This document shows, piece after piece, positions 45,825 to 64,000 of a stretch of DNA of 64,000 bases. The notes below the pieces were generated by a model that saw only the letters and a program-made list of their open reading frames with translations, had not been told where the DNA came from and searched no databases. A program made the translations under genes and the position numbers. Location: assembly GCF_036884655.1 (NCBI RefSeq), contig NC_088340.1, positions 29,576,501 to 29,640,500 on the forward strand, given 5' to 3'. Each line of letters opens with the position of its first letter. Position 1 is the first letter of the stretch. This stretch comes from Musa acuminata AAA Group (Eukaryota > Streptophyta > Magnoliopsida > Zingiberales > Musaceae).

Positions 45825-48097
45825 TCAATGGATTGCGTTGCCCAACAGGTTGTTCTCGGAGAGAGAGCTCCGATCGCTGAACCATGGCTCCTGCACTGAA
45901 ACAGGGGATCCTCCCTTCACTTCCTCTCCCCTGCTGCTCACCGACGCCAACCTCCTACTCTTCGACGTCGTGCGCGGCTTCTCGTTGCAGCTCGACGAGC
46001 ACGAGGAGGACGACTTCGACAAGAACATGCTGCCGTCGGTGGGTACCCACCCGCTGAGCCTGATCTGTTCGAGCTCGTCCGCCACCTCCGTCATGGACGG
46101 CCGCATGTCCCTGTGGAAGGCAAGGCATCTAAACGCCAGCTCGGCCACCTTGTGAATGGAAGCCAGCGTCCGTGGATCTCTGTTCGGGGCAAGGTGAGGG
46201 TCGATTATGTCGTCGATGCAGCCTTTGCCGATCCTGTCCACCGCGAGCGCCGCCAAGAACACCTCGCTCTGCGCCCTGCTGAAGTCCACAGCCTTCAGCG
46301 CCGTGATGATCTCCGTCAGCACGACGCCGAAGCTGTAGACGTCGCTCTTGTCGGAGAGTTGGAAGTTCTGGTGGTACTGCGGGTCCACGTAGCCGGGGGT
46401 CCCCTGCGGCGCCGTCGAGATGTGCGACATCTCCGTCATGCCCATCCTCGACAGGCCGAAGTCTGCAACCTTGGGGTTGAATCTGTGATCCAGCAGTATG
46501 TTGCTGGACTTGATATCCCGGTGGTAGATGGGAGGATGGACGGCCGAGTGGAGGTAGGCGATGGCCTTAGCTGTCTCGGCGGCGATGGTGAGGCGAACGG
46601 TCCAAGGCAGCACCGGCCCCCGCACCCGCTGTAGGTGCTGTGCCAAGGTGCCGTGGGGCATGTACTCGTACACGAGGATCTGCTCTCTTTGCTCCACGCA
46701 GCATCCCAGGAGGCGGACGAGGTTGGGGTGGCTCACCGAGGAGAGCAGCCTGATCTCGTTCATCACCTGCTCGATGCTGTCGTTGTTAAGGTTCTTGATC
46801 TTCTTCACCGCCACGAGCCTGTCGTGGCTGAACATGCCGGCGTACACGGTGCCGAAAGCACCGGTGCCCAGGATGTGGTCCGCCGAGAAGCCGTCGGTGG
46901 CCTTCTCCATGTCCTTGTAGGAGTAGAGGGGAACGGCGCACGATGCCTCGGAGAGCAGGCGTCTCATGCTCTTCCGCTTCCTCGTCAAGGAGGAGTGACG
47001 TTTGATCCACCAGCAAACGGCAGCCAAGGCAGCCATTGCAGAGGCTCCAGCTATGATGCCTGAAACAAGATGATCGATCATCTTAGCACCGCAGTCATGG
47101 TCGGCAAGAACATCAAATTTCTGCTGGCCATTTGATCAACCACATAGCAGGAAGAATACCTCCAGCGAGAAAACCATAACTACTGGTGGTTCCACCGCAG
47201 CCACCTGTCATGTACTTTGTTGGATTGCATTTTTGATTGGGATCAGACACTGGAAAGAGCGAACGCAAAAGGAACAATCACAATTGAAGTCCAAAAAGTA
47301 TCGGTTCAAAGGAAAATGGAGATAGAAGGAAAGGCCTAACCTCTTCGGCAACCTGTGCCGTCGATGAACCCGTCCCCTTGGAACCCCTCCGAGCAGCCGC
47401 ACCGGAATCCCGGCCGATGGGTCACCGGGGATGTAACGGTCGTGCAATTCGCGTCGGCCGCGCATCGACACGTTCCCTCGAGCCACCACGCCAGCTCCGC
47501 CGTGCTGAGGTCCAGCGACGGCACCGAGACGCCGCCCGGGTCGTTGATGCCGAAGGTCGTGAAGAGGAATCCGCAGCCGGAGGCGGCGATGCTGTCGGCG
47601 TTGAAGAAACCTTCCTTGGTCGCATTGTAGAGGCAGGTGGCGTTGTCATACACAGGCCCGCAGCTGCCGTCGATGAGGATGGTGTCGACGCTGCATCTCT
47701 CTGTCAAGCTCTTGCCGGCCGTGGGCGTGCAGTTGCGGAGAAACAGTCCGTTCCTCCGGCTCAACGCGTAGTTGTTGCCGAAGAGGCTCCTGGAAGCGCC
47801 GACGGAGCGGTTGCACGCCGGTGGGACGTCGACCAAGAGGCCGTCGTCTGTGATGTTCCGCACCGTGAATTCTCCGATCCGGATCGTGGGTTTCGGGAGA
47901 TTGGAACAGCCGAGGTGGATGGGGCATCCATCGGAGAAGCCGAAGGGATACGGGGCCGCGTAGGAGCCGCAGGCTCGTTCGCAGTCCTTGGCTGCTTGTG
48001 CAGAGACAACCAATCCGACGGCAACCACCGTGTCCGCGAGGAAGACCAAGAAGGACAACAAGAGAAGACGGTGGCGCGTTCGCTGGAAACGAAGCAT
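45825..48097 (-). CDS. WAKL: Wall-associated receptor kinase-like protein, three exons
   Basis: Exons (minus): 48097-47341, 47249-47160, 47059-45825, joined in frame to 693 residues. The order is a signal peptide (about 1-34, LLLLSFLVFLADTVVAVG), then a Cys-rich galacturonan-binding-like ectodomain with CGSYAAPYPFGFSDGCP. An EGF-like Cys cluster (CRCAADANCTT, CGCSEGFQGDG) and a second Cys motif in exon 2 follow. The transmembrane helix is at about 283-301. The Ser/Thr kinase has glycine loop LGTGAFGTVYAG (346-357), Lys368 in AVKK, HRD (462-464) and DFG (482-484), so it should be active. The tail is Ser-rich. It most resembles WAKL14/20-type kinases, which sit at the plasma membrane and may sense wall fragments. 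Coding sequence is GC-rich, which opens long false frames on the other strand. Confidence 0.93.
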
Positions 48098-49045
48098 CTC
48101 TGTCTCTCCTCCTCGTTTCAGCTGCGCTCCAGCCCAATCACAGGGACGAACCCACATGTTTGCAGCATCGAAACCACAATCCTCAAGGAGAGACTGCTCT
48201 TCCAATCATCACAAGGCAAGCAGAATCTCATGGCACTGATCCTAAACCTCAAAACGCTGCATCAAATTGAATTGAATCTGTGCTCTCTAATCTTCAACCA
48301 TTTGGTCGTCTTCTTATCCGAGCCACCAGTCCAACCTGTGACGCAGAAGAATTGCCGCAGCGACTGGGAAATGGATTTAATAAGGCTTGAATTCCCGTGG
48401 CTTCAAGTCATTAATCTACTAATCTTTGTTTCTGTACTTTGAATCATCATCATCATCCACCATAGCGTCGCAGTTGCTATTTGGACTCTGCTTTCCAGGT
48501 TGACTGACTCGCGCAGGGGAGAACCTTTCCGGTTCATGGTGTCGCCATCTGACAACAAGGGAAGACCTTACAAGTGGATCTTGATGAGTGGTGGTTAGCT
48601 TAGATCGTTCAGTGCATCCTGTCGATTCAAGCCGACCACGTCGACTGACAACAAGACAAGCAGAGTGCGGTGGATTTCTACAGGACTGTCGGCTCCATTC
48701 GACACAAATATCCGAACCCAACAAAGGAGAAGGGAAGATTTAGGCCACGAGGCATCACCACCATGAACTCCGCGTGAGATCCAAGTTGAACATGGCAAGT
48801 GTGCAGGTTCTTCTTCCTCGCCCGTCCATCCTCAGCAGAGGAGACTAGAAAAACCAGCAAAGACTCCAAAGAACCACACCACAGAGATCTGTGTAGACTT
48901 GACGTACACGTAATGAGGACTTGTGGTCGGCGTAATTGCTGACCGGAGCTGAATACAGAGCGCACAAACAAGTCTTCTACGTGCACATTTTTTTATGGAT
49001 GACCAAGAAAGATGATCGAGCACAGAGACATCCATTATTGGCATT
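48098..49045. other. WAK-like promoter region
   Basis: No gene is supported. A GC-poor stretch ends at the target duplication CTACT (49046-49050) of the Tat element. Confidence 0.5.
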
Positions 49046-49050
49046 CTACT
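49046..49050. other. Target site duplication of the Tat element, left copy (CTACT)
   Basis: CTACT lies directly before the left LTR and again at 59435-59439 directly after the right LTR, proving that this is one complete insertion. Confidence 0.9.
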
Positions 49051-49654
49051 TGTTACGGTAATTAATTTTTTAGCCGCGACCTTGGGGCCGACGCGGCTGG
49101 TTCAGAGCTCCAAATGATTTGAATCGGACGTGTCCCTCCCTAAGGCCTTGAGATGGCGGATGTCGAGGACCTGTCTGGGAAACTTTGCCTTGCTGAGTTA
49201 ACGGCGGTCGGGTACCTGCACACAGGTCGGGTCGGTAGCTCGGCCCGACCCCTCCGACGATTAAGTCAGTGGGGAGGAGTATTGTATTGAGTGAAAGATC
49301 GATCCCCCTACGCTGGGAGCCGGGGGGGGGTATTTATGAAGGGGGCTTGATGTTACCTTATGGGCCATCCTGCAAGAGCAGGACCGTACCTCCGGTGGCG
49401 TCTGTCGCCGTCGTGGGCGTTGCGTGTGGAGCCGAGCTACCGCAGGGTATGGGGGGTGTCAGCTGGTGCGTTTGCCTACCTCGGCCGGCCCTGATGGGTC
49501 AGCCGAGGAGGTCCAAGTACAGTGGGTATGGGTGCGTGTCGCGTCGTCGTTAATGCTCTTTCTGGGGTAGCGCACCGTACCGGGCGTCCGACGTGGGGGG
49601 GTGTATTACGTCAAATCCGGGGTGTTATGTCAAGTCAGTTTTTTACCCCTATCA
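49051..49654 (-). repeat. 3' LTR of Tat element (604 bp)
   Basis: In plus orientation it starts TGTTACGG and ends CCCCTATCA. On the minus strand a CATAAATACCCC sequence (near 49327-49338) is the likely TATA box. Confidence 0.9.
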
Positions 49655-49667
49655 TATGCCCCACCCG
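49655..49667 (-). other. Likely polypurine tract of Tat element
   Basis: On the minus strand the sequence just before the 3' LTR is GGGTGGGGCATA. It is short and imperfect. Confidence 0.45.
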
Positions 49668-49868
49668 AAAGGAGCTATGCGTTGGTTTTGCACGTAAGGA
49701 GTTCGACGCATGGCTCCCTGCTTCAATCGTGCTGCTCAGGTGGGTCTGAGAGGTGCGCTGTGGATGGGTCAGTCGCGTGAACGTTTCTCGAGCAGTGCTG
49801 GGCCGGGACACACAACTCGATCGGGAGGTCGAGCGGGGTCGGACTCGGGGCCAATAGGGCCGACGAGG

Positions 49869-50675
49869 GTCGAGAGGCACCACGCAGGCCGGGCGGCCGC
49901 GCAGGTGTGGCTTGTGAGATGCGAAGCTGAGGGCCGAGGAGCACAACGCAGGCGGGGCGACCGCGGTGTGTCTCGGGAGGCATTAAGCCGAGGGCCGAGG
50001 AGCACAACGCAGGCGGGGTGACCGCGTAGGTGTGTCTCGGGAGGCATGAAGCCGAGGGCCGAGGAGCACAACGCAGGCGGGGTGACCGCACAGGTGTGTC
50101 TCGGGAGGCATGAAGCCGAGGGCCGAGGAACACAACGCAAGCGGGGTGACCGCGCAGGTGTGTCTCGGGAGGCGCAAAGCCGAGGGCCGAGGAGCACAAC
50201 GCAGGCGGGGTGACCGCGCAGGTGTGTCTCGGGAGGCGTAAAGCCGAGGGCCGAGGAGCACAACGCAGGCGGGGTGACCGCGTAGGTGTGTCTCGGGAGG
50301 CATGAAGCCGAGGAACACAACGCAGGCGGGGTGACCGCGCAGGTGTGTCTCGGGAGGCATGAAGCCGAGAGCCGAGGAGCACAACGCAGGCGGGGTGACC
50401 GCGCAGGTGTGTCTCGGGAGGCGCAAAGCTGAGGGCCGAGGAGCACAACGCAGGCGGGGCGACCGCGGTGTGTCTCGGGAGGCATGAAGCCGAGGGCCGA
50501 GGAGCACAACGCAGGCGGGGTGACCGCGTAGGTGTGTCTCGGGAGGCATGAAGCCGAGGGCCGAGGAGCACAACGCAGGCGGGGTGACCGCGCAGGTGTG
50601 TCTCGGGAGGCATGAAGCCGAGGGCCGAGGAACACAACGCAGGCGGGGTGATCGCGCAGGTGTGTCTCGGGAGAG
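49869..50675. repeat. 64-bp tandem array in the Tat 3' region
   Basis: About 12.5 copies of a 64-base unit (core AACGCAGGCGGGGTGACCGC then GTGTGTCTCGGGAGGC). Copies vary at a few positions, and some units are shortened (near 49970, 50300 and 50470). Since 64 is not a multiple of three and the minus strand lacks stops, three long overlapping minus frames (up to 354 codons) appear; they are artefacts. Confidence 0.9.
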
Positions 50676-51008
50676 ATTGACCGAGGCGCTCGGTGCAGGT
50701 AGGCTGCGACCGGGGCGATGGCTCCGGGCGTAACATGACCGAGGCGATACTTGGCTTTCGGTCTAGAGTTTGGTCGTTTCGACCGTTGTGCGGGTGCGGG
50801 TAGCCGGGTCGCCTTTTGCCTGGGGAAGGTCAAAGGGCCATGCCTTTCGAGCGTCGCCGGTTTTTGAGGTTGATATGATTAGGGGCTCCGTACTTCGCAC
50901 CGCGCTGCAATTAAGAGCCGCGCCGGCCGAAGTTATGGCGATGCGACTTTTGCATCTTCGCAGCGCGCCTCAGGAGAGGAAGGGTCGCCGTTTCGGCGGG
51001 AAACAAGC

Positions 51009-51016
51009 TATAAGTA
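51009..51016 (+). promoter_or_regulatory. TATA box of the antisense extra ORF
   Basis: TATAAGTA lies about 120 bases upstream of ATG 51131, in the orientation of the extra ORF and opposite to gag-pol. The distance fits a plant promoter with a leader of ~90 bases. Confidence 0.55.
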
Positions 51017-51130
51017 GCGCTCCGTCGGTCCCTTTCACTTCTTGGTACCTGCATTTGCTTCAATCGCCTCTTTGGGTGACCTGGCCCAGCGCTTCTTCAG
51101 TCGCCCTACCTTCCCAAAAGCTCGGTAAGG

Positions 51131-53259
51131 ATGGCTTCCCCTCCTTCATCCTCTCCTTCTCTGCCTCCTCTTTCCGGTGCCGCCGGTGAGGAGGTGGCAT
51201 TGGCGAGCTCCCGCTCGTCGTCCGAGGAAAGGGCCACCAAAGCCCTCGAATTGCTTATGTGGCCGCACGACCTCGACTCCACCGTGAGCGAGTCGTCGCT
51301 CGGCCTTCTCCGGGACCGTTACGGTATCTCGGCGGAGTTCGCGCTCATTGCCCCTGAGCCGGGGCAGCGGGCGTATGATCCTATACCTAAGGGCTTCGCC
51401 CTAACTGTAGATGCCTTCGAGGCCGGGCTGCGCCTTCCGTTCCACCCTGTCATCACTGCCTGCGTCGCGTGGTGGCGCATTTCTCCTTCTCAGATGGCAC
51501 CGAATTCTTGACGCTATCTGGTGGCGTTCCTCGGGGAATGCTACTATGCCCAGATCGCCCCGAGCCGGTCCCTTTTCCTCTCCTGTTTCCGTCTGTCCAG
51601 AGGGTCGGGGGGCTATTACTTGTCCGCCCGACCGGGTTTCCGTGTCAGTGGGGCTCCTTCCAGCAATAAGGGGTGGAAGGAGCGCTTCTTCTACGTTTGC
51701 CATCCAAAGAGTTGGAGCTTCGGCCTCCGGTGGGCGGCGCGCGCAGTCGATAATACTGCCCCGGCTTTGGACGAGGGGGAGCTCCGAGCCCTTCGAAGAT
51801 TGAAGGAGATCCTCCCGTCTTCCAGAGTCTTCCGAAAGATGACCGAGGCGTGGCTGGTCGAGGCGGGCTTGAGCCCAGTACCTCGAGGTATGCCTTGAGA
51901 AGGTGGCGGTGGGCCTTCCAGTTTTGCTTTTCTCTTTTGGGATACTGACCGAGGTCGTTATGTTTGTGCAGAGATAGTGAACCTTGCTGTAGTGCGTGGA
52001 GGACGCATTTCGTCCGCCGCATCTCCGCGGCGCCAGGTCGGCCCGAGCGTCGGCACTAGGGAGGCGCCGGTGGATCTCGAGGATGTCCGCCCTCGAAAGA
52101 AGGCCAAGGTCGCTGCTGCGAAGAAACCGACTCCCCCAAGGGCTCAGGAGAGCGCAGAGGCGGCGGAGTCGGGCTCGCACGATAGGCGAGGGGGGCGAGG
52201 TCGGGGCGAGGCAGGCCCGAGCAACGTGGTTGCAGGAAAGGCGCCTCGGGAGCCCTCGATCCGGGACTTGTGCCGTCTTCCCGCGGGGCCGCCGAACGAC
52301 TTTTACCATGCGCGCCTGATGGGCGAACTTTCCGAGGGCCAACCTTCTGACCGGTTGGTAGCCCGCTGGGGGGGGCTAACCCGCGGGACCCGGGTGTGGG
52401 CCGACGGGGAGACCGCGACTGCGTTTGTCCGAGGGGGGCTGCATCCTGATCTGGCCCGCGAAATGTACACTCTGCCGTCCGACGTCCTGCTCGGGAAGTC
52501 CGTGAAGTCGCTGCTGTGGGTAAGTGTTCCGCTGCCGGCTTCCGACTTGTGGTGCTCCCGAGGGTCATTTTGACTTTCTTCTTGCAGGGCCAGCACTACG
52601 CGATGGCACTGGCAGACCGCGTTCGCGATGCGGGTCAGGCCCTTGGAATTTTGTGCGACCGCAATGCCGAGCTGCGCAAGCAGCTCGAGGAGGTTCGGGC
52701 CGGGGCGGCTCCGGAGGCGGTTGCGGCGGCCGAGCAACGCCCCTCGGAGCTCGAGGCGGAGGCGACGCGTCTCCGAGCTGAGGCAGGGGCGGCCGACAAG
52801 CGCGCGTTGGCGCTGGAGGTCGAGGTCCTTCGCTTAAGGTCCGAGGCGAAGGCGGCCGAGGAGGAGAAAGGCAATCTCCGGGGACTCCTGGAGGGAGCGC
52901 AGTCAGAGGCTCGTCTGGCCCGAGGCGAGGCGGTCGTCCTGACCTAGCGGCTGGAGGGCGCCCTGGCTGACATGAAGGGGGCTTCGAAAGCCCTGGCGGC
53001 CGAGCGGGAGCGGCGGCCGGAGAAAGAGAAGGAGATAATCGAGGCCTATAAACAGTCACCGGGCTTCCAGCTCGGGCTGGCTCGGTCGGGGCAGGTTACC
53101 TACGAGTACGGGTACCGAATCGCCCTTGGCCGGTTCCAGACGAGCCATCCCGGGCTGGAAGTGGAGGCGGATCCGTTTGTCTCGCATCCTGAGGACTTGG
53201 ATGTGGACATGCTGGAGGAAGTTCCTTTCGACGATGGCATGGGGGGATCCGACGGTTAG
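51131..53259 (+). pseudogene. Antisense extra ORF of Tat element (gypsy-type 'transposase 28' family), three exons, two stops
   Basis: Exons 51131-51887, 51972-52519 and 52588-53259 join to 659 codons with correct phases and GT-AG introns of 84 and 68 bases. Exon 1 carries the conserved plant 'putative gypsy-type transposon' block (LRDRYGISAEF, ISPSQMAPNS, RYLVAFLGECYYAQI, SGGYYLSARPGF). This was named after transposons but has no proven transposase activity. Exon 2 is basic (RPRKKAKVAAAKK). Exon 3 is a long coiled coil of Glu/Ala/Arg heptads (about 52650-53040) with an acidic end. A TGA at 51509-51511 replaces a Trp codon, and a TAG at 52945-52947 sits where Gln is expected. An AATAAA follows at 53414. 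The role in the element is unknown. Confidence 0.8.
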
Positions 53260-53413
53260 GGCGGTCTGGAGGTCAGCCCAGCCGGGCAGCTTCCGTATTT
53301 TGTAACTTTTGTGACCTTCGGGCCTGGTCATAGTTGTAACCCCTTGCTTTATAAAGAAAACTTTCTCCCAGTACGTCTTTCGAAAGTCGGGTCTTGTAAT
53401 CCCATGCTTCATG

Positions 53414-53419
53414 AATAAA
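53414..53419 (+). promoter_or_regulatory. Polyadenylation signal after the antisense ORF
   Basis: AATAAA 155 bases after the stop of the extra ORF and just before the pol stop (53522). The extra ORF and pol are convergent with only 262 bases between stops. Confidence 0.5.
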
Positions 53420-53521
53420 AGAACCTTTTCCCAGTGTCTTTTAAGCTTCAAAAATTGCACAACTTCGACTTTGGAGCTGTTGCCAGGGGCATTGACCTCA
53501 GACGAAGAACTTTTTAAGGTT

Positions 53522-56500
53522 CTAGATGTTCCATGTCCTCGGTAGGGAGGAACCGTCCATCGTTGTGAGTCGATAGGTACCTGGTCGAACCACGCCGGTG
53601 ACCCGGTAAGGTCCCTCCCACTTGGGGGCCAGCTTCCCCCTCGTTCGGGTCGGGTCGCTGACTTCGGCCCTTCGTAGGACTAGATCGCCTAACCTGATTG
53701 GTCTGGGTCGCACCTTTCTGTTGTAGACCCTTGCGACGGCTCTCTGGTGAGAGAGGGCCTTCAGGTGTGCGTCGGCACGTCGTTCCTCGAGCACGTCGAG
53801 GCTGGCGCGAAGTCCCTGGTTCGAGGCCTCCTGTTCGTAGCTCCTTGTCTGAAGTGTGGCAACAGTCATCTCGGGCAGTAGGACGGCCTCGGTTCCAAAA
53901 GTCAAGCTATATGGGGATTCTCCGGTCGCAGCTTTGGGGGTGGTGCGCAGCGACCACAGCACGCTGGGGAGCTCGTCCGTCCAGGTCGATCGGGCTGCGG
54001 ACACTCTTCTTCTGAGGCCATCCAGGATGGACCGGTTGGTTACCTCGGCCAACCCGTTCGTCTGAGGGTGGGCCACCGAACTGAACCTCAGTTGAATGCC
54101 ATGACCGGCGTAGAATTCCCGGAACCTCGTGCCGGCGAACTGAGGTCCGTTGTCGGTGACAATGGCTCTGGGCAACCCAAACCGGGTCACAAGGTTTTTC
54201 CAAATGAATTTCTCCATTTGGTGTTCCGTCGTCGTAGCCAGTGGCTCGGCCTCGACCCACTTTGTGAAGTAGTCTACTCCCACAATTATATACTTCCGCT
54301 GTCCAGAGGCCAGTGGGAAGGGGCCGAGGAGGTCCAGTCCCCACTGGGCGAATGACCATGCGCAGTCGATGGGACTGAGCGGGACCGCAGGCTGTCGGGG
54401 TGCGCGGGCGTGTCGCTGACACGAGCCGCACCGCTGCACGTAAGCTTTTGCGTCTCGACACATGGTTGGCCAGTAGTAGCCTTGGCGGAGTATCTTGTGC
54501 GCCAGGGTCCGTCCGCCAATGTGTTCGCCGCAGATCCCCTCGTGAGTTTCAGCCAGGACTGTCTGGGCTTCGAAAGGCTCCAAACACCTCAGGAGGGGGT
54601 AGGTGAAGGATCGTTTGTAAAGCTGGCCACTTTCCTCGGTGTACCACGCGTGCGTGCGGCGCAGACGCCGAGCTGCGCCTTCGTCGAGGGGAAGGGTTCC
54701 ATCCCGCTTGAAGCGCAGCAGCTCTTGCACCCACGTGGTCGGCGCACCGCCTGGGGCCGTGGTTGCCACCTCAATGGCGCGAGCGGGAAGCTCCTCTATC
54801 TCTGGCCACGCTTCGGGGGTTCGCCTTGACGCCAGCTTAGCGAGCGCGTCGGCTCGTCCGTTCTCCTCCCTTGGAACATTAGATAATGTAAAGTAAGAGA
54901 ATTTCGCGGTTAGATCCCTTACCCGCGCCAGATATTTGGCCATGGTTGCGTCACGAGCTTCGTATCCACTGCTGAGCTGTTCGGCCACGAGTTGCGAGTC
55001 AGTGAGGACATGTATTGCGGCCACCTGCATCTCGAGGGCCAGCCTTAATCCTGCTAGGAGCGCTTCGTACTCCGCCTCATTGTTGGTGGCTTTAAACCCG
55101 AAGCGGAGGGAGCGCTCGAATGAGCGTCCGTCGGGGGCGAGAAGGACCAGCCCAGCTCCGGCACCCCTTGAGTTGGCCGAGCCATCCACGTGTAGGGTCC
55201 AAGCCTCGGGAGCTCGCTCGAGGTCTTTGTCCACCCGAGCTAATTCCACGATGAAGTCGGCTACCGCCTGGGCCTTGATGGCGGTTCTGGGCGCGTAACT
55301 GATATCATGTTCACCGAGCTCCACCGCCCATCTGAGGAGCCGACCTGCAACATCGTACTTTGTTAAGATCTGCCGGAGAGGTTGGTCGGTGATGACTTCC
55401 ACCGAGTGTGCCTGGAAGTAGGGGCGCAACTTCCGAGCCGAGAGCACCAGGGCGAGTGCGAGTTTTTCTATCGGCGGGTAACGCTCCTCAGGTCCACTCA
55501 AGACGTGGCTGACGTAGTAGATCGGGAGTTGTGCGCCGGAGCTTTCCTTGATGAGGACGGAGCTGACTGCGTGCGGGGAGGCCGCCAGATAGAGTCCCAG
55601 CTTCTCGCCGGGGAAGACAGAGGCGAGTCGAGGGAGGCTGGCCAGGTGCTGCTTCATCTGTTTCAAAGCCTCCTCGCATTCCGATGTCCATTGGAAGTTC
55701 TTCGGGTCTTTGAGCGCCTTGAAGAAAGGGAGGCAGCGATCGCCCGATCGGGCGAGGAAGCGAGACAGGGCGATAAGTCTACCGTTGAGTCGCTGCAGGT
55801 CTTTAACCGTCCGGGGGGACTGCATATCGATTATTGCCTGTACTTTCTCCGGGTTGGCGTCGATTCCTCTCTGGTGTACAATGAACCCCAGGAACTTCCC
55901 GGAGGTGATGCCGAAAGCGCACTTTGTGGGGTTGAGTCGCATGCCAAACTTGCGTAGCATGGCGAAGGCCTCGGCTAGGTCGGCAAGGTGTGTTCCGGCC
56001 TCTCTGCTTTTCACAATCATGTCGTCCACATAGATTTCCATGTTCCTCCCGATTTGAGGGGCAAACATCTTGTTTACCGTCCTCTGGTATGTGGCTCCGG
56101 CATTTTTCAACCCGAACGGCATGACCTTGTAGAAGTATATCCCTTGATCGGTGAGGAAAGCCGTGTGTTCCCTGTCTTCGGGCGCCATCCTGATCTGGTT
56201 GTATCCTGAATAGGCGTCCATGAAAGAGAGGCGTGCGTGCCCTGCTGTCGCGTCGACCAGCTGGTCGATCTTCGGGAGGGGATAGCAGTCTTTAGGACAC
56301 GCACTGTTGAGACTAGTGTAGTCAATGCACATCCTCCAGCTTCCATTGTGTTTTTTCACGAGAACTACATTGGATAACCACTGAGGATACTTGGCTTCTT
56401 CTATCAAGCCGGCCGCCAAGAGTCGGTCCACCTCCTCTTGTATGGCGCGTTGTCGGTCAGGTGCGTGGCGCCGGGGCTTTTGCTTCACCGGACGAGCGTC

Positions 56501-58801
56501 AGGTGGGATATTGAGATGATGCTCCGCGACCTTCGGGTCGACTCCCCTCATGTCCGATGGGGACCAGGAGAAAATGTCGGCATTTTCCCGCAGAAGGCCG
56601 ACGAGCTGTTCCCGTTCCCGCTCGGGCAGCTTTGATCCGACTTTGACCGTCTGATCCGGCCGTGCTTCCCGCAAGGGGAAGTCAACAGTGGATCCCCTCG
56701 GCTCAGGGTGAGGGGCCGGCTTCTTTGCTTCCCGGGGATCTTCTAGAGGCGCCTCTCCCCTGGCCCTTTTGCCCAATGAGACGGAGGTAAGGTAGCAGCG
56801 CCTGGACTCTTGGGGGCTTCCGGTGACTTCCCCGACCCCCTCCCGAGTCAGGAATTTGACGGTCCGGTAGTAGGTCGAGACGACGGCTCTGACCTTGTTG
56901 AGGGTTGGCCGACCAAGTATGGCATTATAAGTGGTGGGAAGGTCGACCACCAGAAAAGTGGTCATGACGGTCTTCGATTTCGGCGGGGTCCCCAGAGTCA
57001 GAGGCAGGGTGATGGCTCCCAGGGGCGATATTGAATCTCCCGTGAAGCCGGTGAGCGCCGAGCACATCGGGCTTAAACTTTCCCTGGCTAGGCCCAGCTT
57101 CTGGAAGGCGCCAAAGTAGAGTATGTCGGCCGAGCTCCCCGTGTCGACCATGATTCTCCTCACTTGCGCGTTGGCTACCCTAGCCGATATCACCAGGGCG
57201 TCGTCGTGGTGGGGTCGCTCAGTAGCTCCGGTTGGGAAGGTGATCTCGGGCTCAGGCCCGCGCCCCGAGGCTTCGTCGGGGGCAGCCCGGGCATAGGCCT
57301 TCCTGCCCGACATAGAACTTCCTCCGGATGTGGGGCCCCTGGCTATGACATCGATGTGTCGCTCAACAGGGCCCTCCGGACGAGGAGACTGCTCCTTGCT
57401 CGGCCGGAGGTACTGGCCGAGATGACCTTTGAGGATGAGCTCCTCGATTTATCTTTTTAACTCGTAACACTGCTCAGTGTCGTGCCCGTGTTGTCGATGG
57501 AATCGGCAATACTTTGAGCGGTCTGCGAGCTCTCGCGGGTTCTTCATCGGGTGAGGGTCCCTGAGCAGCCCCTTCCCCCTTTCGTGTAGGAATATCTCTG
57601 TCCGGGAAGAGTTCAAGGCGGGAAGAGGAGGCCTTGGGTCGGGCCTGTCCAACTTTCGCCGGGAGGTGGTGGGTTGTTGCTATCGGGGCGGCTCCGACTT
57701 GACCTTTCTGTGCTCCTCCCGCTTTCCGATCATCCAGGTTTCCGCGGCGATGAACTGACTGGCCCGTTGGAGCATCTCGGGGACCGCGACGGGGGGCCTC
57801 TCCACGAGCGACCAGAAGAACCTGGAGGGCCGCAGACTAGTCATAAAGGCCTGCATCAAGAGAGAGGGGTGAGCATCCGACAATCCACGGATTTGCGTCG
57901 TAAACCGGTTCACAAAGTGAGAAAGGGGCTCGTCCTCCTTCTGGTTGAGCCCTAAGAGCAACGCCATGGACAGCTTCGGTCGGGCGTACGCCAGGAAGTT
58001 AAGTTCAAAATCCTTGGCGAGCTGATCGAAGGAGGCGATGGTCCCTGGCTTCAGGCCACTGTACCACGCGCGGGCTGGTCCTCGCAAGGTCGTCGGGAAT
58101 GCCCTGCACATCAGGGCGTCTGAAGTCCCGAATAGCACCATCTGGGACCGAAAAGCGGCCACGTGGTCCGCGGGGTCGGTCGCGCCGTCATACGCGTCCA
58201 AGGAGGGGAGGCGGAAATGCGGTGGGATCGCCTGATCCTGTATCTCGGGGGTGAACGGAGATCCTTGGTGTCCGTCCGCCTCGAGTTCTCCCTTTGACTT
58301 ACGAACCTCTTGTTGTACCTCGTCAAGCCTTTGACTGACGAGGCGCAGCTGGGCCCGTAGGGCGTTCGTCGAGTCGGTAGTCGGAGCCTCGGGCTCGGGG
58401 CGGCTCGTCGTGTCCTCTGCTTCCCTGCTCCCCGGTCGAGTTGTGGGGTTTCGAGGCGAGCCCGGAAGCCTTGGGAGTGGCACGCGGGTCCGGTCGGGGG
58501 TCTCCTGTTGCTACGAGGGCCGCGCCGCATGCGGAGGGGTTCGTTGGGAGACAATGGTCTGCACCATGCTTGTCAGAGCTCGGACCTGGTGGGCGAGGTC
58601 ATGAAAGGCCTCGGGCAACACTTGCGAGGAGTCGGCGGGTGCGCCGCCAGGGGGCGACAAGCCCGGGTCGTTGAACAGTCGCCAGTAGCGTTCTGACACC
58701 GCTGCGGGGCGTTCGTCGTGGGTTTCGTCACGCCGTTCCCCTAAGGCGGGGAGCACCGCATTTGAGGATCCGCCGGGGTAGATTTGTTGATCGCCTGACA
58801 T
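53522..58801 (-). pseudogene. Tat gag-pol, one frame interrupted by three stop codons
   Basis: A single frame of 1760 codons runs from ATG 58801 to the pol stop at 53522. Stops occur at 58513-58511 (TAG), just before 57680 (TAG) and near 57449 (TAA); the last lies inside the gag zinc region after CYELKR. Gag has [12 protein letters not shown] and a Cys-His motif [14 protein letters not shown]. Pol (open from 57313, 1263 codons) has protease [10 protein letters not shown], reverse transcriptase with YVDDMIV, and a first RNase H lacking the usual catalytic start ([14 protein letters not shown]). A second RNase H follows ([34 protein letters not shown]). Integrase has H-H-C-C ([19 protein letters not shown]) and DDE ([16 protein letters not shown]). 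Two RNase H domains are the Tat hallmark. Confidence 0.92.
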
Positions 58802-58811
58802 TTGGATGAGG

Positions 58812-58829
58812 CCCTCCTTCTAGCGCCAA
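58812..58829 (-). other. Primer binding site of Tat element
   Basis: On the minus strand TTGGCGCTAGAAGGAGG follows the 5' LTR end by two to three bases. It is not the iMet type, and I cannot assign the tRNA by eye. Confidence 0.6.
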
Positions 58830-58831
58830 TC

Positions 58832-59434
58832 TATTACGGTAAGTAACTTTTTAGCCGCGACCTTGGGGCCGACGCGGCTGGTTCAGGGCTCCAAATGACT
58901 TGAATCGGACGTGTCCCTCCCTAAGGCCTTGAGATGGCGGATGTCGAGGACCTGCCTGGGAAACTTCGCCTTGCTGAGTTAACGGCGGTCGGGTACCTGC
59001 ACACAGGTCAGGTCGGTAGCTCGGCCCGACCCCTCCGACGATTAAGTCAGTGGGGAGGAGTATTGTATTGAGTGAAAGATCGATCCCCTTGCGCTGGGAG
59101 CCGGGGGGGGTATTTATGAAGGGGGCTTGATGTTACCTGATGGGCCATCTTGCAAGAGCAGGACCGTACCTCCGGTGGCATCTGTCGCCGTCGTGGGCGT
59201 TGCGTGTGGAGCCGAGCTGCCACAGGGTATGGGGGGTGTCAGCTGGTGCGTTTGCCTGCCTCGGCCGGCCCTGATGGGTCAGCCGAGGAGGTCCAAGTAC
59301 GGTGGGTATGGGTGCGTGTCGCGTCGTCGTTAATGCTCTTTCTGGGGTAGCGCGTCGTACCGGGCGTCCGACGTGGGGGGGTGTATTACGTCAAATCTAG
59401 GGTGTTATGTCAAGTCAGTTTTTTACCCCTATCA
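58832..59434 (-). repeat. 5' LTR of Tat element (603 bp)
   Basis: It matches 49051-49654. Its inner terminal dinucleotide is TA instead of CA (minus strand), one of about 22 differences from the 3' LTR. Confidence 0.9.
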
Positions 59435-59439
59435 CTACT

Positions 59440-60645: not shown

Positions 60646-61044
60646 GGTGTGCCGACGGATCCCCAAAGGACCGGGTGGCATGCCTGGGGCTGAGGGACGT
60701 GATCGTACTGGGCGTCTCCATGGGAGAAGTGGGTTGACTCGTCGAGGGTGTTTTAGGGGGGTAGGACCCCATAGTGTGGGCAGGAGCGACCTTGCTAATT
60801 GCACGGTAGGGGCATGACGAAGCGAAACCAAGGCGTCGATGTCGGCGAGTCGAGGTCATCGTGAGGCGACTCAGATAGCGGAATGTGACTTAGCCGCACG
60901 GTGTGGCTTGATCGTTAGGATCAGGCCGGTGGGCAAAGCACCTACGTCTGGGCTCGAGTTTTAATGTCGACCGGTTGCAAACCGAGAGTGATTTAGCACA
61001 CTTTGGTCGGAAGCTGGATATGGGGGTTGAGCGGGTAGATCCTG

Positions 61045-61320
61045 CTCCGATTTGAATATGGGGACCGAATTTGTGAGCTCGGCTCTGAATTGAGTATGGG
61101 GACCAAGTTTATGAGCTCGGCTCCGAATTGAGTCAGGGAACCGAGTTTGTGAGCTCGGCTCTAAATTGAGTCTGGGGACCGAGTTTGTGAGCTTGGCTCC
61201 GAATTGAGTCTGGGGACCGAGTTTGTGAGCTCGACTCCGAATTGAGTCTCGGGACCGAGTTTGTGAGCTTGGCTCGAATTGAGTATGGGGATCGAGTTTG
61301 TGAGCTCGGCTCCGAATTGA
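61045..61320. repeat. 38-bp tandem array
   Basis: About seven copies of a 38-base unit, GGGGACCGAGTTTGTGAGCT followed by CGGCTCCGAATTGAGTCT. Copies differ by point changes. Confidence 0.85.
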
Positions 61321-61324
61321 ATCT

Positions 61325-62790
61325 AGCGGGTCACTAGTCGGGAGCGATCTGGAGCAACTCGGGTAGGAATCGAGCTTGGGGCGCTGACGGGTCGCTAGTC
61401 AGGAGCGATCTGGAGCGACCCGGGCAGGAATCGAGTTTGGGGAGCTGACGGGTCGCTAGTCGGGAGCGATCTGGAGTGACCCGGGTAGGAATCGAGCTTG
61501 GGGCGCTGACGGCTCACTAGTCAGGAGCGATCTGCAGTGACCTGGGCAGGAATCGAGCTTGGGGTGCTGATGGGTCGCCAGTCGGGAGCGATCTGGGGCG
61601 ACCCGGGCAGGAATCGAGCCCGGAGCGCTGACGGGTCGCCAATCGGGCGCGATCTGGGGTGACCCGGGCAGGAATCGAGCTTAGAGCACTAATGGGTCAC
61701 TAGTCGGGAGTGATCTAGAGCGACCCGGGCAGGAATCAAGCTTGGGGCACTAACGGGTCGCCAGTCGGGAGTGATCTGGAGCGACCTGGGTAGGAATCGA
61801 GCTTGGAGCGCTGACGGCTCGCCAGTCGGGAGTAATCTGGGGTGACTCGGGTAGAAATCGAGCTTAGAGCACTGACGGGTCACTAGTCGAGAGCGATTTG
61901 GAGCGACTTGGGCAGGAATCGAGCTTGGGGCACTGACGGGTTGCTAGTCGGGAGCGATCTAGAGCGACCCGGGAAGGAATCGAGCTTGGGGCGGTGACGG
62001 GTCGCGAGTTAGGAGCGATCTAGAGTGACTCGGGCAGGAATCGAGCTTGGGGCGCTAACGAGTTGCCAGTCAGGAGCGATTTGGGGTGACCCGGGTAGGA
62101 ATCAAGCTCGGGGCACTGACGGGTTACCAGTCGGGAGCGATATGGGGCGACCCGGGCAGGAATCGACCTTGGGGCATTGACGAGTCACCAGTCGGGAGCG
62201 ATCTGGGGCGATTCGGGTAGGAATCGAGCTTGGAGCGCTGACGGGTCGCCAATCGGGAGCAATCTGGAGCAACCCGGGTAGGAATCGAGCTTGGGGCGCT
62301 GACGGGTCGCCAGTCGAGAGTGATCTGGGGCGACCCGGGCTGGAATCGAGCTTGGAGCACTGACGAGTCGCCAGTTGAGAGTGATCTGAGGTGACCCGGG
62401 TAGGAATCGAGCTTGGAGTGCTGACGGGTCGCTAGTTGGGAGCGATCTGGAGCGACCCGGGCAGGAATCGAGCTTGGGGCGTTGACGGGTCGCCAATCGG
62501 GAGCGATCTAGGGTGACCCGGGCAGGAATCGAGCTTGGAGCGCTGACGGGTCACTAGTCGGGAGCGATCTGGAGTGACCCGAGTAGGAATCAAGCTTGGG
62601 GCGCTGACGGGTTGCCAATCGGGAGCGATCTATGGTGACCTGGGCAGGAATTGAGCTTGGAGCGCTGACGAGTCGCTAGTCGGGAGCGATCTAGAGCGAC
62701 CCGGGCACGAATCGAGCTTGGGGCGCTGACGGGTCGTCAGTCGGGAGTGATTTGGAGTGACCCAGGCAAGAATCGAGCTTGGGTTGCGAG
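61325..62790. repeat. 61-bp tandem array
   Basis: About 24 copies of a 61-base unit, with core GGGTCGCTAGTCGGGAGCGA, then TCTGGAGCGACCCGGGCAGG and AATCGAGCTTGGGGCGCTGAC. Copies differ mainly by C/T and G/A changes. The minus frames through it are artefacts of the period. Confidence 0.92.
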
Positions 62791-62834
62791 TTATACTTGA
62801 ACGTCGTTGTGCCATGTGGCGGGCCAGGCAGAGC

Positions 62835-64000
62835 TGTTGAATCTCAGATTTTGATGATGAAACCAATCAATATGTGTTTATATTTTAATCTGTGTTTTTG
62901 AGTGACGCAGGATGCTTCGATCAGGATGAGACAATTATAGCAGGAAAATCATGTTGTGCCGGAGGAACATGTTAGAAGATTGGACGTTGGGCCGGTGGAT
63001 CGGTCGACGTATCGACAGAAGGCTTCAGGCCGTAGATTCGGGCATCGGGCCAAGAAGAGCGAGTATTGCGCCAAGGATATCAGAGTTGTAGAGTCAACTG
63101 GCCGATTGGGCAATAGGCCGCAAGAGAGGATGATGCGCCGAAGAATCGGACGAAGCGTCGAGGGACCAATGACATGCCGGACAACTTGATTGCTTAGGAG
63201 TAATTGTCTAGATCAAAGTTTTGCTTTACTTATGCAGGATTAACTATGATAGATTGAAGACATAAAGCAAGTCTATCGGAGTTGATGGGTGTTTTAGAGT
63301 CCGAAGATTCATCGGAGATGCTGTCGGAACCAATCAAGAGGAAATCGGGTACTTGCCGAAGTTTTCGAAAGTCCACCGAAGAGATCGTCGAAGGTTCACG
63401 GAGATCATTGAGAAAGATCAGCTACTTGCCAAAGACTCATTGAACTTGCCACAAGACCGAGAGCCTACTGGGAGTCCGTCGGAAGAAATCCGAGGGTGTA
63501 TCGGAAGTCCACCGAAAGTTCACCGAAAAGCTCGCCGGAAGGAAACTCGATGTTGTCAGTTAAAAACTTGCTTAGGACTATGTCTTAATTTCATAGTTTG
63601 TATGTAATTAGGGTTAGGATTAAGGGTTAATCCTATAACCCGGTTATGGGCCAATTGGGCCCAAGTTCGGACTAGTTTGGGCCAAGTTTGGAGCCCAACC
63701 AGTGAGCTGAAATAGATTGGGCGGTGGCACCGCCAGTACACTGTCAGTGTCAGACATTGATAGGCGGTGGCAACGCCAGCATCGAGAACCCAAGAGAATT
63801 CAAAATTTGGAGCCCAAATTTGAATCCTCTTGGGGCCTATAAATACCCCTCAATTCTTAGCAGAGAATACAACCTTTGAGAAGTTAAAGATTGAGATAAA
63901 GCCTTAGCAAAGTCTTTAGCAAGTCTTATTTTCAATTGCTTGAGTGTTCACCTCCTTCTTTCTCGTTGAAAAATTGTAAGAGTGTGAACCATTGTAAAAG
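62835..64000 (+). repeat. LTR of another copia element of the first family (right end outside window)
   Basis: It starts TGTTGAATCTCAGATTTTG and aligns with the 6342 LTR through GATGATGAAACCA, GACGCAGGATGCTTCGAT, the GGGCCGGTGGATCGG block and GCCTATAAATACCCC (TATA 63838-63845). The middle part (63260-63780) is more divergent, and the palindrome block is reduced to about two motifs. It interrupts the Tat-like tandem array region. The five bases before it are AGAGC; the right target copy is not visible. Confidence 0.85.

Follow-up and report, generated by a model that had tools for sequence, protein, structure and literature searches.

A broken copy of a probable two-intron antisense gene in a Retand-type retrotransposon of banana

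Background

On the minus strand of a 64,000-nucleotide stretch of the banana genome (Musa acuminata AAA Group; assembly GCF_036884655.1, contig NC_088340.1, positions 29,576,501 to 29,640,500; hereafter the window) lies a long terminal repeat (LTR) retrotransposon of the Tat/Retand type, and against the direction of its gag and pol, between pol and the 3' LTR, runs a three-exon reading frame on the plus strand. An earlier note on this DNA had read the frame as a spliced antisense gene with its own promoter, which could make a regulatory protein or double-stranded RNA (dsRNA). Following that reading through the related copies in the genome, we conclude with a probability of roughly 0.82 that a Retand-type Ty3/gypsy family of banana carries, antisense to gag-pol, a protein-coding accessory gene with two introns, and that the window holds a broken copy of it. 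All inferences on splicing are drawn from the comparison of genomic sequences.

That plant gypsy elements carry extra antisense open reading frames (ORFs), as the note held, is borne out by published surveys. One covering 617 plant genomes reports that 97% of the Retand clusters with recent activity have antisense ORFs with a Transposase_28 domain (PF04195; PMC11963269), and an earlier one found Transposase_28 in 23% of Retand elements and a plant mobile domain in 57% of Ogre elements (PMC6317226).

The antisense gene in the window

In the window copy the gene comprises the following parts.

51131..51887, plus strand: exon 1 (757 nucleotides, nt), Transposase_28 domain; in-frame TGA at 51509-51511
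51888..51971, plus strand: intron 1 (84 nt), GTATGC...GTGCAG, phase 1
51972..52519, plus strand: exon 2 (548 nt), disordered linker with a conserved basic motif, then a conserved helical segment
52520..52587, plus strand: intron 2 (68 nt), GTAAGT...TTGCAG, phase 0
52588..53259, plus strand: exon 3 (672 nt), coiled coil and conserved C-terminal tail; in-frame TAG at 52945-52947, terminal TAG at 53257-53259

Joined, the exons measure 1,977 nt, or 658 codons and a stop. The geometry that the note had described, three exons separated by two short GT-AG introns of fitting phase, therefore holds, as does its count of 659 codons, but the frame is not open in this copy: a TGA interrupts the Transposase_28 block and a TAG the coiled coil. 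Neither premature stop is present in the 36 other aligned copies of the family (L002 is gapped at 52945). Because of these two stops the window copy cannot make the full protein; it is a pseudogene with stop-free copies among its relatives. Without splicing, its exon-1 frame ends just inside intron 1, at a stop at 51896-51898.

Splice sites and introns across copies

Relatives of the window copy were gathered by a DNA search with exon 1, in which 40 places, each at least 93% identical, were scored out of 1,077 first-look candidates. Thirty-six of these and the window copy make up the family-A alignment of 37 rows, which leaves out L001 (the window itself), L005 and L006 (a rearranged tandem) and L025 (partial). 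Every one of the 37 rows has GT at the start and AG at the end of both introns, and intron lengths are free to vary: intron 1 measures 75-94 nt, with remainders of 0, 1 and 2 modulo 3 in 28, 4 and 5 rows, and intron 2 leaves a remainder of 2 in 34 rows and of 1 in three. Nine distinct insertion or deletion events (indels) fall in the 84 nt of intron 1 and two in the 68 nt of intron 2, as against two, seven and eight in exons 1, 2 and 3, which amounts to 107 and 29 events per kb in the introns and to 2.6, 12.8 and 11.9 in the exons. T is also more frequent in the introns (37% and 35%) than in the exons (24%, 16% and 15%). Read as spliced, the frame is free of stops in 13 of the 37 rows (one lacking the first 27 nt, another with a 33-nt deletion); read through, it is open in none, with at least five stops in each.

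The same organisation recurs in a second, more distant family. Genome matches of an NCBI gene model, P0001 (LOC135636366, 634 amino acids, aa), break at about residues 249/239-243 and 431/428, P0001 and P0003, when matched exon by exon, are interrupted at similar positions, and locus L041, spliced at the corresponding GT-AG sites, yields P0001 exactly. Loci were available for 30 of the 69 exon-1 places of this family B, and all 30 share the exon phases of family A. Intron 1 is 75 nt long in seven rows and 76 nt in 23, so that only splicing preserves the frame of exon 2; the spliced frame is stop-free in 19 of the 30 rows and the unspliced frame in none, which leaves no open unspliced frame among the 67 rows of both families. 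When one copy of each family is compared, 353 of 617 aligned residues are identical (57%), with a non-synonymous divergence (dN) of 0.35 and a synonymous divergence (dS) of 1.44. Since this pair shares both introns, the introns are far older than the copies of either family. In a third group of seven loci, a pattern script found both introns in the same phases in L072 and L074 and the intron-1 donor in L077 and not in L075, and made no clear call for L073, L076 and L078.

Public protein models, which are gene models rather than RNA evidence, can be laid over the same junctions. At the second junction, 32 of the 41 models aligned to P0001 (itself among them) pass cleanly, with no insertion and at most two residues missing; at the first, where the linker is variable, 12 of 35 do. 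The count is rough: it wrongly takes P0024 as clean at the first junction. Proteins derived from ENA (13 among the matches) were considered as a possible source of cDNA and set aside, the sole junction-crosser in that test, P0018, retaining intron 1. Named relatives came from Musa and Ensete only among the matches listed, in a protein search that reaches only relatives sharing 5-residue words and hence says nothing on other plants.

Several observations on the copies themselves may be recorded here. L071 (G000:C4:38232600-38234800) was examined as an intron-less processed copy and rejected, its intron 1 being partly deleted; L075 seems to have undergone a similar loss, and the apparent partial deletions in these two copies indicate that intron-1 signals can indeed be lost. 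L005 and L006 (G000:C9:28800559-28806063) form a tandem pair of antisense-gene exon 1 about 1.7 kb apart. A 2.3-Mb contig, G000:C985, holds eight of the 40 family-A places and four family-B exon-1 places; its family-A places are spaced at about 170-215 kb or double that distance, a spacing that points to large duplicated units or to an effect of the assembly.

Selection on the spliced frame

Ratios of non-synonymous to synonymous divergence (dN/dS) were calculated with our own script by the Nei-Gojobori method with Jukes-Cantor correction, over pairs that share ancestry and are thus not independent; for family A, divergence and dN/dS refer to 30 rows, after removal of seven of the eight copies on C985. 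Mean pairwise divergence at codon positions 1, 2 and 3 is 0.048, 0.035 and 0.119, in the introns 0.122 and 0.125, and in the flanks 0.099 and 0.130: the introns evolve like third codon positions, at about 12% divergence. The median dN/dS of the spliced frame is 0.205 (431 of 435 pairs, those with dS above 0.02), not the ratio near 1 that the note had set as the sign against its own reading. It stands at 0.485 in the 51 pairs with dS below 0.05 and at 0.184 in the 279 pairs with dS of 0.16-0.3, a trend to be expected from drift in dead copies and continuing constraint in active lineages. In the spliced frame dN/dS is 0.21 for exon 2 and 0.24 for exon 3 taken separately; the remaining two forward frames give 1.24 and 1.65, and two of the reverse frames 1.14 and 2.05. 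Family B agrees, at 0.176 in 25 rows, once L042, L051, L062, L064 and L067 are dropped as likely duplicates judged by eye. The comparison with the element's reverse transcriptase (RT) draws on eight rows, namely the window and seven fetched pol pieces, an eighth piece (L092) having been excluded for one gap relative to the window; dN/dS is here 0.127 for RT and 0.214 for the antisense gene.

The predicted protein

Similarity, alignment and structure prediction agree on the parts that the note had named: a Transposase_28 block, a basic linker and a coiled coil. In the comparison with PF04195, which it had proposed, the Transposase_28 piece of the window copy, ending at the 51509 stop inside the domain, scores 24.0 bits (E 4.7e-5), just under the cut-off of 26.2; the relatives P0001, P0019 and P0003 score 40-44 bits. 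The Pfam model spans 69 positions and the predicted domain about 210 residues. In an AlphaFold2 model of P0001, built on an alignment of 40 relatives (mean predicted local distance difference test, pLDDT, 60.9), residues 24-237 are predicted to be folded, residues 237-405 have a pLDDT below 50, and long helices are predicted at 432-565. Intron 1 splits codon 246 of P0001 and intron 2 follows codon 431, both near domain borders, so the exons match the predicted domains. The predicted coiled coil suggests that the product oligomerises. A motif K[KR]x[KR], which we take to be a nuclear signal, is found in 18 of the 20 aligned proteins within the linker (P0004 lacks the region, P0007 differs), and counted without alignment it appears in 32 of 48 proteins, compared with 18% of shuffled sequences; with it the product could plausibly enter the nucleus. 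Structure comparison found no fold relative of the predicted Transposase_28 domain, Pfam and structure searches found no enzymatic domain in the product, and no bZIP family appears among the Pfam matches of P0001, P0019 and P0003 at E of 10 or below.

Promoter and poly(A) signals

Both of the signals that the note had pointed out, TATAAG at 51009 and AATAAA at 53414, are present, together with two conserved blocks.

50930..51004, plus strand: two conserved upstream blocks (50930-50959 and 50990-51004), with 1-2% mismatch against about 10% in the flank (29 rows compared with the window copy)
51009..51014, plus strand: putative TATA box (TATAAG); TATAA core in 36 of 36 family-A rows with sequence there, adjoining bases varying
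53414..53419, plus strand: AATAAA poly(A) signal, some 100 bp ahead of the stop codon of pol; found in each of the 13 rows examined (12 fetched copies and the window)

The TATA box adjoins the gene and lies about 1.35 kb outside the 3' LTR; the 15-bp bin around it is no more conserved than the flank (0.105). The block at 50990-51004 contains GGCGGGAAA, which resembles an E2F site. The conserved upstream blocks share TTTCGGCGGG with the family-B copy L041, which reads CATAAAT at the position aligned to TATA.

The host element and its surroundings

The gene lies opposite a Tat-type gag-pol, as the note had it, which is confirmed by the LTRs, the target-site duplication (TSD) and the Pfam order of pol.

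49051..59434, minus strand: whole Tat/Retand-type LTR retrotransposon insertion, about 10.4 kb, delimited by paired LTRs and TSD
49051..49654, minus strand: 3' LTR, 604 bp
49864..50673, strand not assigned: 64-bp tandem array of 12.9 copies, between the antisense gene and the 3' LTR
53522..57313, minus strand: pol ORF, 1263 aa, with RT, RNase H, a second RNase H (RVT_3) and integrase in that Pfam order
57680..58483, minus strand: gag ORF, 267 aa (PF03732, E 3.6e-12)
58832..59434, minus strand: 5' LTR, 603 bp

A 5-bp TSD, CTACT, flanks the insertion (49046-49050 and 59435-59439), and the LTRs are 96.5% identical across 602 aligned bases (20 mismatches, one gap). At an assumed 1.3e-8 substitutions per site per year, their divergence would correspond to about 1.3 million years. 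Gag and pol are separate ORFs, and Pfam places RT at pol residues 319-479, RNase H at 542-667, RVT_3 at 709-828, the integrase zinc-binding domain at 916-969 and rve at 990-1083. An additional RNase H (aRH), placed between RNase H and integrase, is the known arrangement of Ogre and Retand elements (PMC6317226) and is the one found here. The Retand ranges, LTRs of 315-1194 bp, an internal region of 7.4-12.9 kb and 2.9-6.6 kb between pol and the 3' LTR (PMC11963269), include the window element on every count (LTRs of 604 and 603 bp, about 9.2 kb and about 3.87 kb), which also has an antisense Transposase_28 ORF between pol and 3' LTR, as reported for Retand. A wall-associated-kinase-like host gene adjoins the element at 45825-48205 on the minus strand, with a kinase domain and a galacturonan-binding match below the Pfam cut-off, and outside the element two abutting tandem arrays, with units of 38 bp and 61 bp, occupy 61006-62846.

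Weighing the explanations

Exon structure, constraint and intron-like evolution emerge directly from the comparison of copies, and at the level of the family an intron-bearing, protein-coding antisense gene is strongly supported; from these we infer transcription and splicing in vivo. The pieces could instead be independent antisense ORFs without splicing, two or three in number, one with Transposase_28 and one of the coiled-coil 'Smc' type, such as the published ORF Finder survey lists (PMC11963269), and the stop of the exon-1 frame at 51896-51898, where the ENA proteins P0088 and P0101 also end, is in keeping with this. We consider it very improbable, given the absence of an open unspliced frame from all 67 rows, the third-position-like introns with their frame-breaking indels, the constraint on exons 2 and 3 in the spliced frame and the codon split by the phase-1 intron. 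Next to no weight falls on a decayed relic, functionless everywhere, whose exon pattern arose by chance: true of the window copy, with its two in-frame stops and LTRs that differ at 20 of 602 positions, it is contradicted at family level by strong constraint and by the stop-free spliced rows of both families. The antisense RNA might itself be the product, forming dsRNA with the genomic RNA and leading to silencing by small interfering RNAs with the protein incidental. The entire gene is complementary to the genomic RNA and a 2020 review raises the possibility (PMC7264820), but constraint tracks the codon positions of one frame up to a between-family dS of about 1.4, and we regard this reading as improbable, while noting that both could co-occur. 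Since selection acts on the protein, dsRNA is unlikely as the main product and possible as a side effect; of the two products that the note had offered, it is the protein that a dN/dS of about 0.2 favours. A more substantial competitor, unlikely in our judgement yet deserving attention, keeps the protein and assigns it to the movement of the element (bringing the pre-integration complex into the nucleus, or integration) and not to control of expression. Such a role is suggested in PMC7264820, 97% of the Retand clusters with recent activity contain Transposase_28 (PMC11963269), and constraint on the gene is of the same order as on RT; no enzymatic domain or structural relative was found, and the present evidence does not discriminate import from regulation.

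Several observations weigh against a spliced, independently promoted gene with a nuclear protein as product, and are gathered here. One minus-strand frame is also low in dN/dS (0.276 in family A, 0.244 in family B), which is expected because its third positions coincide with those of the spliced frame, of which it is presumably the mirror. A search of the genome with the spliced exon2-exon3 junction of family A (at most three mismatches; the exon1-exon2 junction was not searched) returned no match, against 48 for the exon2/intron2 boundary, with GTAAG as donor in 47 and GTAGG in one; this fits introns shielded as reverse complement in the genomic RNA, and neither proves nor excludes splicing. 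L056, one of the 30 family-B rows, has an intron 2 that no longer ends in AG, and five public models read into an intron (P0018 and P0024 into intron 1; P0020, P0025 and P0029 into intron 2). In 29 of 30 family-B copies the 200 bp upstream contain none of TATAAA, TATAAG and TATATA; in the single family-B copy inspected downstream, L041, AATAAA is missing from the stretch of about 200 nt that follows the stop. With the TATAA core invariant in family A but TATA strings mostly absent in family B, independent promotion as the note had proposed finds backing in the first family and none in most of the second, and a promoter of the gene's own is plausible. For a nuclear function, the evidence consists of the linker motif and a published maize relative.

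Under the preferred reading, of a two-intron protein-coding accessory gene, working copies would contain an RNA polymerase II unit inside the element, transcribed toward pol, whose transcript would be spliced at the two short introns and end at the AATAAA shortly before the pol stop codon. The product, maintained by selection, would be a protein of about 630-660 aa, with the Transposase_28 domain from exon 1, the disordered basic linker from exon 2 and the coiled coil and conserved tail from exon 3. Most likely it would enter the nucleus, oligomerise via the coiled coil and act there as an accessory regulator on element DNA, RNA or the integration complex. The antisense placement would permit the element to keep the introns, because in genomic RNA they are reverse-complemented and cannot be removed by splicing during the replication cycle.

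Known systems and novelty

The closest published counterparts are the surveyed Retand ORFs, which likewise lie antisense between pol and the 3' LTR, carry Transposase_28 and are of similar size, in elements that share with the banana element a long pol-3'LTR region and a tandem array (PMC11963269). Some surveyed clusters have Smc-like coiled-coil ORFs; in banana, by contrast, a single two-intron gene contains both the Transposase_28 and the coiled-coil part as exons. The survey relied on ORF Finder. Its Table 1 includes no Musaceae species, and a word search of its main text did not find 'intron'. Gene 23 of the maize Grande element, as a review describes it, resembles the banana gene in lying antisense downstream of pol, and is reported to have its own promoter and a nuclear protein (PMC7264820). 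Ogre, of the same Tat subclade, has the second RNase H between RNase H and integrase and a known intron (PMC6317226). Farther afield, hbz of human T-cell leukaemia virus (HTLV) type 1 and aph of HTLV-2/3/4 are likewise antisense, spliced accessory genes of retroelements, HBZ being a nuclear protein with a bZIP helix that lowers sense expression (PMC10186651). The analogy is one of layout only: these genes are unrelated in sequence and driven from the 3' LTR, whereas the banana gene has its putative TATA box well outside the LTR and a product with no bZIP match. Sense-RNA introns in plant LTR retrotransposons are known from Ogre (PMC6317226) and from triticale gag RNAs (PMC7765848). No description of introns in Retand antisense genes was found in the literature covered, in part, including PMC9289625, PMC12786077 and PMC9055855, a scope outside which lie most subscription papers, the 2013 Grande paper and the 2011 extra-ORF survey. 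As far as we have seen, one antisense gene with two conserved introns joining Transposase_28 and coiled-coil parts is new.

Conclusions

Beyond banana, it is conceivable, at somewhat less than even odds, that the antisense Transposase_28 and Smc-type ORFs across flowering-plant Retand elements are exons of one ancient spliced gene, whose antisense orientation lets its introns pass the RNA cycle: a spliced nuclear accessory gene, HBZ-like in layout, based on a domain for which structure comparison gave no relative. The reason for such a placement would be simple, as an intron always removed from the genomic RNA would vanish in the next cycle; partly spliced sense introns exist nonetheless, in Ogre (PMC6317226) and in triticale gag RNAs (PMC7765848). 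A 2020 review calls for the study of antisense and spliced transcripts (PMC7264820). If one two-intron gene does underlie the antisense Transposase_28 ORFs, surveys of uninterrupted ORFs have been reading its fragments, and the correct full-length protein becomes testable.
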